A DNA stretch of 36,477 bases, taken from positions 1 to 36,477 of the forward strand of contig NZ_MRBY01000040.1 of assembly GCF_001904615.1 (NCBI RefSeq), written 5' to 3'. This stretch comes from [Limnothrix rosea] IAM M-220 (GTDB lineage Bacteria > Cyanobacteriota > Cyanobacteriia > Cyanobacteriales > MRBY01). The notes under the pieces were generated by a model that had not been told where the DNA came from, ran no database searches, and worked only from the letters and a program-made list of their open reading frames with translations. The position numbers and the translations under genes are program-made. Within the stretch, counting starts at the first letter, position 1. Every line of letters begins with the position of its first letter. Below, one piece after another: positions 6,313-31,478 of the stretch.

Positions 6313-6912
6313 ATGCAAAAGATTAAAATTTTCCTCGCGTCTTCGTCTGAACTGAAGTCAGACAGGGAACAGTTCGAGATTTTTATGTACCGAGAATGCA
6401 AGAAACGCTTCGATGATGGGGTCTTTCTGCACCTCGATATCTGGGAAGATTTTCTAGATGCGATGTCGGCGACAGGTCTCCAGAGTGAATACAACAAGGC
6501 CATTCAGGACTGTGACATTTTTGTGTTGCTCGCATGGAACAAGGTCGGGAAATATACCGCCGAGGAATTTGAAAAGGCGTTCGGTTCATTTGAAGAAAAT
6601 CAAAAGCCGTTTATTTTTACTTATTTCAAACCGCACACGACAAGGGATCGAGATGAACTAAAAAGCCTCTGGGAATTTGAAGATAAGCTCAATGAACTAA
6701 AGCATTACAAAACGCCCTACGAAACCATCGAAGGGTTGCGGGAGCATTTTGGAAATCAGTTGGATAAGCTCGCGAAGAATGGGTTTGAGCAGTTGGGTTT
6801 GTCGGCGGCGATCACAGATGATGGCGCAGCAAAAAATTCTCAAACCGGAACAGTGACGGATAATCGCAAAATTTACAATATCGAAAAAATTGATCAAGCT
6901 GAGTTCAGTTAA
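6313..6912 (+). CDS. DUF4062/TIR-like effector-type protein with C-terminal amyloid-like motif
   Basis: The 199-residue protein begins KIKIFLASSSELKSDREQF, the hallmark start of DUF4062-like alpha/beta domains that sit at the N-terminus of many NLR/STAND-type proteins. The domain continues through WEDFLDAMSATGLQSEYNKAI, CDIFVLLAWNKVGKYTAEEFEKAF and PFIFTYFK to about residue 155. A polar linker leads to KIYNIEKIDQAEFS at the very C-terminus (6868-6909). The same pattern occurs near the N-terminus of the downstream TPR protein, as in bacterial amyloid-signalling effector/receptor pairs, where the effector carries the motif last. ATG 6313 is preferred over an in-frame GTG at 6307. Enzymatic activity cannot be read from the sequence. 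The hairpin-ended element begins only 13 bases after the stop codon. Confidence 0.75.
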   Translation: MQKIKIFLASSSELKSDREQFEIFMYRECKKRFDDGVFLHLDIWEDFLDAMSATGLQSEYNKAIQDCDIFVLLAWNKVGKYTAEEFEKAFGSFEENQKPFIFTYFKPHTTRDRDELKSLWEFEDKLNELKHYKTPYETIEGLREHFGNQLDKLAKNGFEQLGLSAAITDDGAAKNSQTGTVTDNRKIYNIEKIDQAEFS

Positions 6913-6933
6913 TATTGTAAAAAATCCCCCTCC

Positions 6934-7153
6934 TTGGAGGGGTTAGGGGTGGGTTCTCCGAGGATTTCGTAATAACTTTTTCTAATTAGGATTAGGGTAA
7001 ACATGAAGCGACAAATTATTCCTTACAAACCACATCTCAAAGATTGGAGGGGTTAGGGGTAGGTTCTCCGAGGATTTCGTAATAACTTTTTCTAATTAGG
7101 ATTAGGGTAAACATAAAGCGACAAATTATTCCTTACAAACCACATCTCAAAGA
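6934..7153 (+). repeat. 110-bp tandem duplication of the DUF559 gene leader
   Basis: Positions 6934-7043 and 7044-7153 are near-identical direct copies with two evident substitutions (G/A in the GGGTT/AGGTT run, and ATG/ATA). Each copy contains the left-end sequence TTGGAGGGGTTAGGGGT and the first codons of the DUF559 reading frame. Copy 1 keeps the ATG (7003) but runs into a TAG at 7054-7056 after 17 codons. Copy 2, which is joined to the full gene, has ATA at 7113-7115 instead of ATG. Confidence 0.93.
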
Positions 7154-7154
7154 G

Positions 7155-7499
7155 TTGGCAAAAAAGCTTCGCAACAGCATGACTCCCGGCGAAATTGCTG
7201 TATGGCAAATGATTAAAGGGAAAAAACTAATGGGGTATGATTTTGACCGTCAGCGTCCCATTGATGAATTTATTGTTGATTTCTATTGCAAGGATTTAAT
7301 GTTAGCGATTGAAATTGATGGGTTTAGCCATGATTCTTTAGAGGCTCAGCTCAAGGATGAGTATCGGCAAAAAACTTTGGAGTCTTTTGGCATTCATTTT
7401 TTACGTTTCTCGGAGTCTGATGCGAAAAATCATTCTAAAAGCGTTGTCGAAGCAATACAGAATTGGATCATGGTATATATTTCTTCTTCTAAAATTTAA
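7155..7499 (+). CDS. DUF559 family endonuclease-like protein (start codon apparently lost)
   Basis: The reading frame encodes a Vsr-like, PD-(D/E)XK-type DUF559 domain: LRNSMTPGEIAVWQMI, GYDFDRQRPIDEFIVDFYC, LAIEIDGFSH, and a C-terminal FGIHFLRFSESD. The Asp of IVDF and the Glu and Asp of EIDG are the expected metal-binding residues and are present. The full family-like start is KRQIIPYKPHLKELAKKLRN, but its first codon is ATA (7113) in the copy fused to the gene, and an in-frame stop lies upstream. Translation must therefore use TTG 7155, ATG 7182, a rare ATA start, or not occur. The protein may be a crippled version of an element-encoded nuclease. It belongs to the hairpin-ended element and not to the flanking effector/TPR pair. 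Confidence 0.75.
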   Translation: MAKKLRNSMTPGEIAVWQMIKGKKLMGYDFDRQRPIDEFIVDFYCKDLMLAIEIDGFSHDSLEAQLKDEYRQKTLESFGIHFLRFSESDAKNHSKSVVEAIQNWIMVYISSSKI

Positions 7500-7569
7500 A
7501 AGTGATTGTTTGTAGGTTGCATAACTGATCGAAACCCCTTCCGGCTTCGCCACCTTCCCCAAGGAAGGA

Positions 7570-9276
7570 TTGATTTTAGATTCGTTTATTTGGACACAGG
7601 CAGTGACGGCAGAGAAAATCTACAACATCGGCAATATTGAGAATGCGACTTTTCTGAATCAATCGCTGGATTATCAGAATCTCAAACAACGCATCGACGA
7701 AAAACGAGAATATCTAGAATTTCTACAGGCGAAAGGCGACACCGCAAAAGCCATCAAAGCCGATGGGGAACTGCAACAACTCCTCAAAGAACTGGAACAA
7801 CTTAAAGACTCAGTCTTTCGGCTATACGAAACCTTCACGAAAATCGAGATTAATACCGAACGACTACGGCAGGCAAAAACATATTTTGAGCTGGGGCAAT
7901 TTCGGGAGGCAGATGCAATCCTCAAAGCGGAGGACATTAATGCCGACCTCGACAAACTCCTCGACCGGGAACAGCAACTCGCACAAGAACAAACGCAGAT
8001 TCAGGCGAGTAAAACACAGATTGCCGATGAGTTTCTGATTAAGGCGCGGCTGTGGGCGACTTTCTACGATGAAAAAGATTGGTTTGAGCGGGTCTGTGAA
8101 TACTTCGACGGCGCACTCAGGGCAACTAAAACCACAGAGATTTTGTTTGAATATGCCGTCTTTCTGCAAAAACACAATCAATTTAAAAAGGCTCTCCCCC
8201 TCTACGAAGAAGCCCTTGAGATAAGGAGGCAATTAGCGGCAACCAATCCCCAGTCCTTTCTGCCCGATGTGGCGATGACCCTCAACAATTTGGCGATTTT
8301 GCACAAAGCATTGAACGAATATGAAACGGCCTTAGGGGAGTACGAAGAAGCCCTTGAGATATACCGGCAATTAGCGGCAACCAATCCCCAGTCCTTTCTG
8401 CCCGATGTGGCGATGACCCTCAACAATTTGGCGGTTTTGCACAGCGATCGCAACGAATATGAAACGGCCTTAGGGGAGTACGAAGAAGCCCTTGAGATAT
8501 ACCGGCAATTAGCGGCAACCAATCCCCAGTCCTTTCTGCCTTACGTTGCAGGAACCCTCAACAATTTGGCGGTTTTGCACAAAGCATTGAACGAATATGA
8601 AACGGCCTTAGGGGAGTACGAAGAAGCCCTTGAGATATACCGGCAATTAGCGGCAACCAATCCCCAGTCCTTTCTGCCCTACGTTGCAGGAACCCTCAAC
8701 AATTTGGCGGTTTTGCACAGCGATCGCAACGAATATGAAACGGCCTTAGGGGAGTACGAAGAAGCCCTTGAGATATACCGGCAATTAGCGGCAACCAATC
8801 CCCAGTCCTTTCTGCCCTACGTTGCAGGAACCCTCAACAATTTGGGGCTTTTGCACAAAGCATTGAACGAATATGAAACGGCCTTAGGGGAGTACGAAGA
8901 AGCCCTTGAGATATACCGGCAATTAGCGGCAACCAATCCCCAGTCCTTTCTGCCCTACGTTGCTACGACCCTCAACAATTTGGCGGTTTTGCACAGCGAT
9001 CGCAACGAATATGAAACGGCCTTAGGGGAGTACGAAGAAGCCCTTGAGATAAGGAGGCAATTAGCGGCAACCAATCCCCAGTCCTTTCTGCCCGATGTGG
9101 CGATGACTGCGATTAATCTCAGTATTTTTTATCTTCAGGCTGTTGGCGATCAGAAAAAATCTATCGCCCTTGCTCAAGAATGCATTGAAATCGCAAGAGA
9201 TTTTTCTTTTATTCCAATTGTTCAGCAATATGCCGCCGCTGCTCAACAGGTTCTCGATGCATGGGAGCAAACTTAA
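7570..9276 (+). CDS. TPR-repeat protein with N-terminal amyloid-like motif, putative receptor
   Basis: This frame of up to 568 residues has three parts. Near the N-terminus is KIYNIGNIENATF (7615-7653), matching the end of the upstream effector. A charged helical/coiled-coil segment (about 35-175, QRIDEKREYLEFLQAKGD onward) follows. The rest is a TPR superhelix of about seven kinesin-light-chain-type repeats (EALEIYRQLAATNPQSFLP, TLNNLAVLH, NEYETALGEYEEAL). No NB-ARC/STAND ATPase is present, so it would be a TPR-only receptor. The start is uncertain: TTG 7570 abuts the right hairpin of the inserted element with AAGGAAGG too close to serve as a normal ribosome site, and GTG 7603 is the next option. 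The insertion may have removed the original start. Its stop overlaps that of the convergent folate gene by 4 nt. Confidence 0.8.
   Translation: MILDSFIWTQAVTAEKIYNIGNIENATFLNQSLDYQNLKQRIDEKREYLEFLQAKGDTAKAIKADGELQQLLKELEQLKDSVFRLYETFTKIEINTERLRQAKTYFELGQFREADAILKAEDINADLDKLLDREQQLAQEQTQIQASKTQIADEFLIKARLWATFYDEKDWFERVCEYFDGALRATKTTEILFEYAVFLQKHNQFKKALPLYEEALEIRRQLAATNPQSFLPDVAMTLNNLAILHKALNEYETALGEYEEALEIYRQLAATNPQSFLPDVAMTLNNLAVLHSDRNEYETALGEYEEALEIYRQLAATNPQSFLPYVAGTLNNLAVLHKALNEYETALGEYEEALEIYRQLAATNPQSFLPYVAGTLNNLAVLHSDRNEYETALGEYEEALEIYRQLAATNPQSFLPYVAGTLNNLGLLHKALNEYETALGEYEEALEIYRQLAATNPQSFLPYVATTLNNLAVLHSDRNEYETALGEYEEALEIRRQLAATNPQSFLPDVAMTAINLSIFYLQAVGDQKKSIALAQECIEIARDFSFIPIVQQYAAAAQQVLDAWEQT
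8203..9107 (+). repeat. 138-bp intragenic tandem repeats (46-residue TPR units)
   Basis: The string TACGAAGAAGCCCTTGAGA begins at 8203, 8341, 8479, 8617, 8755, 8893 and 9031, exactly 138 bp apart. The DNA, not only the protein, is nearly identical, so the expansion or homogenisation is recent. Two unit types alternate: one encodes HKALNEYE, the other HSDRNEYE (the latter containing a GCGATCGC site), giving a 276-bp higher-order period. The last unit is partial and diverges after 9107. Confidence 0.95.
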
Positions 9277-31200: not shown

Positions 31201-31279
31201 AAAAACTCCTAGTTGTTGTCAATCAAATGTGGTTAATAGTTGGTGGATGCAAAAGCTTTCTGACAGAAGCCTCAAAAGT

Positions 31280-31370
31280 TCCCCTCTTGGGAGGGGCTAG
31301 GGGTGGGTTGCGATCAGTTATGCAACTCACGGAAACCCCTTCCGCCTTCGGCACCTTCCCCAAGGAAGGA
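31280..31370. mobile_element. 91-bp MITE-like relative of the DUF559 element, no coding sequence
   Basis: The left end CCCCTC-TTGG-GAGGGG (31281-31296) and GGGGCTAGGGGTGGGTT match the left end of the 6925-7569 element. The right end GAAACCCCTTCCG followed by CCTTCC-CCAA-GGAAGG (31354-31369) matches its right end. Next to the right end, GCC-TTC-GGC (31344-31352) replaces GGC-TTC-GCC of the larger copy: both arms change but pairing is kept. The central 15 bases (31311-31325) are the exact reverse complement of 7517-7531. It looks like a non-autonomous, internally deleted or ancestral form of the DUF559 element. Confidence 0.68.
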
Positions 31371-31478
31371 TGTTTTGTAGTGAGACTTGCTTACTTTTGT
31401 CAAAACTCTAAGTTCAGGACAAAAAATTAACGGGTTAATGAACTTTGCGACTAACCCGCCATTGCATTGCCTCAATGC

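Follow-up and report, generated by a model that had tools for sequence, protein, structure and literature searches.

The window analysed here is a 36,477-nucleotide stretch of DNA from [Limnothrix rosea] IAM M-220 (contig NZ_MRBY01000040.1). A 91-base element at 31280-31370 carries no gene, and it shares its ends with a larger element of the same window, which encloses a gene of the DUF559 family. What kind of element is the gene-less copy, and do its fold and the DUF559 protein matter for its spread? Our reading, for which we regard the case as evenly poised, is that 31280-31370 is a gene-less doublet, built like a REPIN (a hairpin-forming pair of repetitive extragenic palindromic, REP, modules), and that the gene-bearing form of the family carries a DUF559 nuclease between like ends. 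As a description of the anatomy, the REPIN-like doublet is the best supported. The copy itself is probably non-autonomous.

Read directly from the sequence, the copy consists of two inverted hairpin modules flanking a 23-base quasi-palindromic core (Table 1). The left module has a hairpin (left end, LE), three further bases and GGGGTGGGTT; the right module (right end, RE) starts with AAACCCCTTCC, followed by a small hairpin, GCC-TTC-GGC, and a terminal hairpin, CCTTCC-CCAA-GGAAGG. R1, a covariance model of the right module, also matched 31279-31336 on the minus strand (25.4 bits, E 1.1e-5). The two ends are therefore variants of a single module, one model detecting LE and RE in opposite orientations.

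The 31280 copy is not alone; this small repeat has dozens of copies that carry no gene. A 131-base BLAST query (31260-31390) gave 41 matches in the same genome, and R1 found at least 80 places there at E up to 0.001. The five genus mates, G001 to G005, yielded at least 4, 25, 19, 62 and 33 matches, respectively; all R1 counts are lower bounds, as the 150 best candidates were scored per genome. Outside the genus R1 gave two weak matches in G014 and no match at E up to 0.001 in the other 23 of the 30 genomes, while BLAST with the left-module sequence alone found matches in four genomes of other families (G007, G014, G021 and G029). The copies are partly complete doublets and partly right modules alone. 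Some local arrangements were also recorded. In G002 (C1:1614473-1614632), four right-module matches stand in a row at steps of about 38 bases, a tandem array of the module. A cluster of four doublets in the L. rosea genome (L013, G000:C20:21000-26900) contains three that have lost the small hairpin (TTATACGAAAAG), and GTCATTTTGGTGTAGAGGTCAAAGAG follows all four. Doublets with similar flanks in L. rosea (L014) and G005 (L156), apparently one shared insertion, have the same small-hairpin stem and a changed loop (TCC vs. TTC).

Covariation of the small hairpin

A sequence-only reading of the window had singled out a compensatory swap between GCC-TTC-GGC at 31344-31352 and GGC-TTC-GCC at 7543-7551 and had taken it as evidence that the folded form matters. 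The swap is real: the second of three pairs changes from C-G to G-C and the rest of the hairpin is identical. From 141 R1 matches the 26 weakest, mostly LE read on the other strand, were dropped, and 7 of the remaining 115 could not be parsed by pattern, leaving 108 copies. The 115 came from chosen fetched loci, which were the better ones (43 from L. rosea, 47 from G004, 24 from G005 and one from G003), and are a subset of the R1 places. At least three pairs of the small hairpin were formed in 84/108 parsed copies and at most two in 24/108, among them the TTATACGAAAAG and TCATACGAAAA types and GCCTGAACCA. A C-TNC-G centre was present in 87/108, of which 64 copies entered a four-pair test and 23 have three-pair stems; 21 copies lack this centre.

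In the four-pair class the arms around the centre were seen as GCCC/GGGC, GGTC/GACC, GCTC/GAGC, GGCC/GGCC, AGCC/GGCT and CGCC/GGCG. Full pairing was observed in 44/64 copies, as against a permuted mean of 15.7 and a maximum of 27 in 10,000 permutations; counted as distinct arm combinations, 13/30 were fully paired (permuted mean 4.9, maximum 11). When identical rows were counted once (54 rows), 89.4% of cells paired. Two-sided changes were repeated, with 45 double-change cells vs. 15.2 in shuffles, a value reached in 0/500, and all six controls in which the partner was slid by 1 to 3 columns scored lower. Both window copies belong to the three-pair class, in which the swapped pair is C-G in 21 copies and G-C in 2. 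With three distinct arm combinations (P 0.33) this class alone is too uniform for the swap to be significant, and the significance of the small hairpin thus comes from the four-pair class. The proposal that the fold matters therefore held for the small hairpin, which keeps its pairing through repeated double changes; it did not hold for the two larger hairpins, nor for the three-pair swap taken by itself, and the 24 poorly paired copies also count against it. The small hairpin thus has good evidence of folding and the larger ones have none; these are conserved as sequence or else decaying.

The loop of the small hairpin reads T-N-C. Among hairpins of at least three pairs, T is first in 84/84 and C last in 78/84, while all four bases occur in the middle, and consequently the other strand reads C-GNA-G. 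GNA trinucleotide loops are reported to give extraordinarily stable DNA minihairpins (Yoshizawa 1997, cited in PMC7432603; PMC8984947). The T-A third pairs would leave three loop bases, a register that would exclude an RNA UNCG tetraloop. The GNA loop on the other strand, together with this register, points to single-stranded DNA: the small hairpin may be read in that form, on the strand opposite to the one in which the right module is given here.

The DUF559 gene and its hairpin ends

In the window, inverted hairpin units enclose the DUF559 gene at 6927-7569; the 31280 copy has no gene, although, as the sequence-only reading had claimed, the two forms have their ends in common. This gene is the sole DUF559 match in the L. 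rosea genome, and all five genus mates have DUF559 matches. The structure model of the protein (predicted local distance difference test, pLDDT, 91.5; predicted template modelling score, pTM, 0.85) matched 3hrl (E 8.6e-7), the homing endonuclease I-Bth0305I (E 7.8e-4) and, at low significance, Vsr (E 0.14); 3hrl was also the best sequence match in the Protein Data Bank (E 1.1e-11). Model and alignment together display the fold and the catalytic residues of EDxHD homing endonucleases. The invariant E, D, H and D residues of DUF559, which we take to be the EDxHD signature, are kept in the L. rosea protein. YcjD is a DUF559 member as well. A 2005 study ties YcjD to Vsr through profile comparison (PMC1189080).

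A protein search gave 68 DUF559 loci, mostly from Bacteroidota, the others from Planctomycetota, Neomarinimicrobiota, Chlorobiota/Ignavibacteriota and one further cyanobacterium. Four loci cut at contig ends (L075, L099, L110 and L126) were left out and the remaining 64 were scanned for a unit made of a pyrimidine-armed hairpin followed by a G-rich motif within 350 bases of the gene. Units were found upstream in 48/64 loci, downstream in inverted orientation in 45/64 and on both sides in 37/64. The far windows (upstream, 1.1 to 1.45 kb from the gene; downstream, the final 350 bases, which in a few short loci such as L064 and L104 lie less than 1.1 kb from the gene) had units in 0/64 and 1/64, and dinucleotide shuffles in 1/192 and 0/192. 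DUF559 genes are thus enclosed by hairpin units in several phyla. The genes are of different clades and patchy within a genus. With a Pontibacter left end as query, 2 to 15 matches were obtained in six of eight genomes of DUF559 loci, the loci's own ends included, and no match in the other two. Loci from a plasmid collection (alphaproteobacteria, Deinococcus, cyanobacteria and E. coli) have related ends in part, as judged by eye, and those of Sphingobium, Novosphingobium and Shinella contain a small hairpin with a GAA or TTC loop. A literature search on DUF559 returned no title on repeats or transposition, most subscription papers being outside its coverage. At the Fulvivirga imtechensis locus (L080, 1271-1500 and downstream), about 100 bases look alike by eye on both sides of the DUF559 element.

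Sister species show the same pair of junction sequences occupied by a gene-less unit in one and by a gene-bearing unit in the other. In G004 (C118:22400-22836), both junctions of the window's DUF559 element (L. rosea 6846-6957 on the left and 7528-7842 on the right) surround a gene-less doublet; in G005 the right junction lies beside a gene-less doublet and the left flank is different. The core of complete copies commonly reads CTCAGTAAGTTGCGACACCTATCGA, with near variants. What stands before RE in the gene-bearing copy matches the right part of the core (Table 1), and what follows LE fits the left part of one core form (22/2000 shuffles as good). The arrangement fits, to judge from these alignments, a DUF559 gene inserted into the core or lost from it. 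The second copy of a 110-bp duplication in the L. rosea element reads ATA at the position that is ATG in relatives such as L063 and L107, and the gene is probably damaged at its start, with loss of the usual start codon. As this is the sole DUF559 gene of the genome, movement of the element there may be over. Next to the element (7570-9276), the window encodes a TPR protein with near-identical repeats, whose counterpart beside the G004 junction looks degenerate by eye.

Weighing of the explanations

Several known systems resemble the element in part. Like REPINs and their RAYT genes (REP-associated tyrosine transposases), as described in PMC3116915, the family has a gene-less, high-copy inverted doublet of short palindromic modules with a spacer, single modules too, and a nuclease gene with modules on its flanks. 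The inverted palindromic modules and short spacer of a REPIN are present as LE-core-RE. In contrast to REPINs, the enclosed gene here is a DUF559 gene of Vsr-like fold, the right module contains a second, covarying mini-hairpin, and no Y1/RAYT gene was found in the L. rosea genome: the Y1 transposase family PF01797 had no match there (completeness 100) and one to three matches in each of the five genus mates. In the absence of a RAYT we describe the element as REPIN-like in build and do not file it as a REPIN. A REP/RAYT or IS200/IS605 system as the mover in the L. rosea genome was rejected on the same finding. REP palindromes are reported to have a GTAG or CGTC tag at the head (PMC3733652).

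EDxHD homing endonucleases and Vsr (I-Bth0305I, 3r3p; Vsr, 1cw0) share with DUF559 the fold and the invariant E, D, H and D, and, as for such homing endonucleases, a quasi-palindromic site that is intact in copies without the gene appears to be split by it. The DUF559 gene differs in lying between hairpin repeats which are also found as many gene-less copies, and its cleavage activity is putative. Bacterial miniature inverted-repeat transposable elements (MITEs; PMC10969869) are likewise short and non-autonomous with inverted ends, and the 31280 copy lies inside one; the LE-RE unit differs in that its ends are hairpin modules and that it often stands without the outer ends. Rhizobial RIME elements are small, folded, dispersed intergenic repeats like the LE-RE unit, and the small dispersed repeats of cyanobacteria treated by Elhai in 2008 are reportedly also small, folded and intergenic; both are likened by description, not by sequence.

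The best reading is that a Vsr/homing-type nuclease, DUF559, putatively active, stands in place of RAYT. DUF559 would recognise the modules or the core and move or convert copies. The small hairpin would be recognised in single-stranded form, on the DNA strand with GNA. The nuclease would cut gene-less copies at the core, and a gene-bearing copy would serve as the repair template, in a homing-like manner. More broadly, and only tentatively, DUF559 nucleases might be the RAYT-equivalents of a class of hairpin repeats across many phyla, recognising ends with GNA-loop hairpins of single-stranded DNA and homing into the quasi-palindromic cores of gene-less doublets, which would thereby become gene-bearing, with the gene later lost again. 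REP-like repeats are common, and to our knowledge RAYT is their only established partner enzyme. If the reading is true, a nuclease family unrelated to RAYT would also have hairpin repeats of its own; a widespread "domain of unknown function" would thereby gain a function, and many GC-rich intergenic palindromes might be explained. The C-GNA-G mini-hairpin is a covariation-backed target for biochemistry.

A number of points weigh against this. Cleavage, excision and movement are putative; some of the copying is accounted for by outer MITEs, the window's own DUF559 gene appears damaged, and DUF559 may be a repair enzyme only. The upstream gene at the G004 junction site is a fragment with a longer match on contig C137, and the site may be a partial duplicate and no strict orthologue. 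After LE the other core form does not fit (1990/2000 shuffles as good), and a comparison of the LE-side and RE-side sequences around the gene gave no direct repeat (1870/2000). Across phyla, units in the wrong orientation occur at 14/64 and 19/64 loci, as would follow if units cluster; 8/64 loci have no unit on either side; and of 12 plasmid-collection loci given a looser scan, 7 had a unit on one side or both, with one match in the far flank. The covariation statistics have limits too. Two of five measures were not significant, namely pairs with a double change (3 vs. 2.7; 347/500 shuffles), which with three varying pairs is saturated and cannot rise further, and further pair types (8 vs. 6.8; 112/500), and according to the tool these are the two least prone to relatedness. 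The cells count sequences, not events, and the four-pair set was chosen for its C-TNC-G centre, so that the 21 copies without it were left out. Finally, the longer hairpins do not covary: LE had 5 double changes vs. 4.8 under the null (59 of 71 copies usable, 44 distinct), and the terminal hairpin of RE had 1 vs. 2.5 (108 copies, 53 equal to the consensus).

An unlikely alternative is that ordinary MITEs carry the LE-RE unit as inert DNA, that an unrelated insertion sequence (IS) transposase copies it by way of the outer ends, and that DUF559 is irrelevant to its spread. Outer ends are recognisable at the 31280 copy, and in G004 a first type of outer end lies on at least one side of 32/47 copies, itself a point against a role of DUF559; in L. 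rosea this type is found at 7/43 copies and a second type (TTCGAATAAG) at 10/43. Against it, no outer end above threshold was detected at 27/43 L. rosea, 17/24 G005 and 12/47 G004 copies, of which 12, 6 and 8, respectively, have LE, and a search of three genomes for the outer MITE without the unit gave 0 matches to one exact pattern, a strict test. The kept pairing of the small hairpin is also not predicted by passenger status alone. That DUF559 is a Vsr-like repair nuclease which merely lies near hairpin repeats and takes no part in their copying seems distinctly unlikely to us. The structural match to Vsr, although weak, agrees with it, as does VsrA of Caulobacter, a DUF559 protein and predicted mismatch-repair endonuclease, which is needed in the DNA-damage response of cells without a cytosine methyltransferase (PMC12907096); the presence, in 37/64 loci, of inverted units that flank the gene closely at both ends, with none in the far flanks, and the patchy occurrence of DUF559 clades within the same genus speak against it.

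Two further alternatives concern the hairpins themselves. Template switching or templated repair in quasi-palindromes is a known mechanism, by which a single event copies one arm to the other, and the covariation would then reflect a mutation bias and not selection on the fold. Perfect arms of several kinds are found side by side, which agrees with it; yet double changes are not in excess in LE or RE, the longer hairpins, and the loop keeps its edges around a variable middle base. We consider this explanation very unlikely. Still less probable, in our view, is an action of the hairpins at the RNA level, as a terminator, an mRNA stabiliser or a small RNA. One terminator-like site was found on the plus strand at 31354-31369, vs. 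0.4 expected in shuffles, and RNA of this strand folds better than shuffles (z -2.35; -1.44 for the other strand). For either strand the difference from shuffles is larger when the sequence is folded as DNA (z -3.38 and -2.90), the two flanking genes are oriented opposite to the terminator-like strand, and the three-base loops left by the T-A third pairs would not form a UNCG tetraloop. A known RNA family was rejected, as Rfam gave no match in the window at gathering scores.

Outer element, insertion site and core orientation

The outer ends, clearest in G004, are TAGACCTCTTGCATAAGTC and CTTTTGCAAGAACTCTA, and they read TAGA...TCTA in many G004 copies, as seen by eye. Ends of this first type exceed the threshold on both sides of 29/47 G004 copies and occur on at least one side of 3/24 in G005. 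The outer element thus has the terminal inverted repeats of a MITE, although the left one of the 31280 copy is weaker (Table 1), and the 31280 copy looks like an old passenger in it. The sequence-only reading had also supposed that the copy may influence the adjoining 296-residue gene. We rejected such regulation: the two flanking genes are adjacent without the element in four of the five genus mates (G005, G003, G002 and G001), and the lone terminator-like site is opposite to both genes. The L. rosea intergenic region is, by eye, about 100 bases longer than that of G005, and the four empty sites are too diverged to place the 31280 junction and a possible target-site duplication. In G004 the two genes match on different contigs, which is uninformative.

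Table 1. Positions of the element's parts in the window.
Feature	Position	Strand	Basis
LE hairpin CCCCTCC-TT-GGAGGGG of the gene-bearing copy, followed by GGGGTGGGTT at 6946-6955	6927..6942	+	sequence
110-bp tandem duplication of LE and the DUF559 gene start (6934-7043 / 7044-7153)	6934..7153	+	sequence
DUF559 reading frame; initiator position ATA; listed open reading frame starts at TTG 7155	7113..7499	+	comparison with relatives
Right part of the core before RE, GTAGGTTGCATAACTGATCG	7510..7531	+	0 and 5 of 2000 shuffles as good (two gene-less core forms)
RE of the gene-bearing copy; small hairpin GGC-TTC-GCC at 7543-7551	7532..7569	+	sequence, R1 match
Degenerate left terminal repeat of the outer MITE	31259..31280	+	local alignment score 10; 18/2000 shuffles as good; below the copy-survey threshold
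Left-end hairpin CCCCTC-TTGG-GAGGGG (LE)	31281..31296	+	sequence; inverted relative of the right end
Inner inverted-repeat arm GGGGTGGGTT	31300..31309	+	sequence; pairs with the AAACCCC arm in the predicted single-stranded DNA fold
Quasi-palindromic core, reversed relative to most complete copies	31310..31332	+	sequence, orientation scoring
Right-end inner inverted-repeat arm AAACCCCTTCC	31333..31343	+	sequence
Small hairpin GCC-TTC-GGC (other strand: C-GAA-G triloop); stem covarying in other copies	31344..31352	+	covariation tests
Right-end hairpin CCTTCC-CCAA-GGAAGG (RE), terminator-like on the + strand; without covariation	31354..31369	+	sequence, terminator scan
Right terminal repeat of the outer MITE	31393..31410	+	score 13; 0/2000 shuffles as good; above the copy-survey threshold

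The 15 bases at 31311-31325 are, as had been noted from the sequence, the exact reverse complement of 7517-7531. Both stretches lie inside the quasi-palindromic core and the palindrome accounts for part of the match; the difference in core orientation remains real beyond this share. From 81 pattern hits, 67 complete copies were kept after removal of duplicates and odd lengths, and in 11/67 the core fitted the rest better when reversed, in seven by more than 1.5 score units and in four slightly. The seven are the 31280 copy, L009, L010, L011, L012, L153 and L154. An outer right end that looks the same by eye is shared by at least L009, L010, L012 and the 31280 copy, so a single old inversion, or a few, multiplied by copying would be enough; the proposed inversion of the interior is thus borne out as a difference between copies, and repeated flipping is not needed. 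The L011 site, considered as a second empty site, was not empty: L. rosea carries an LE-RE doublet there and both close relatives (L231 in G005, L232 in G004) a different palindromic unit (GATCCCCCTAAATCCCCC...), which is arranged inside-out and in G004 has core-like sequence on its flanks, as judged by eye.
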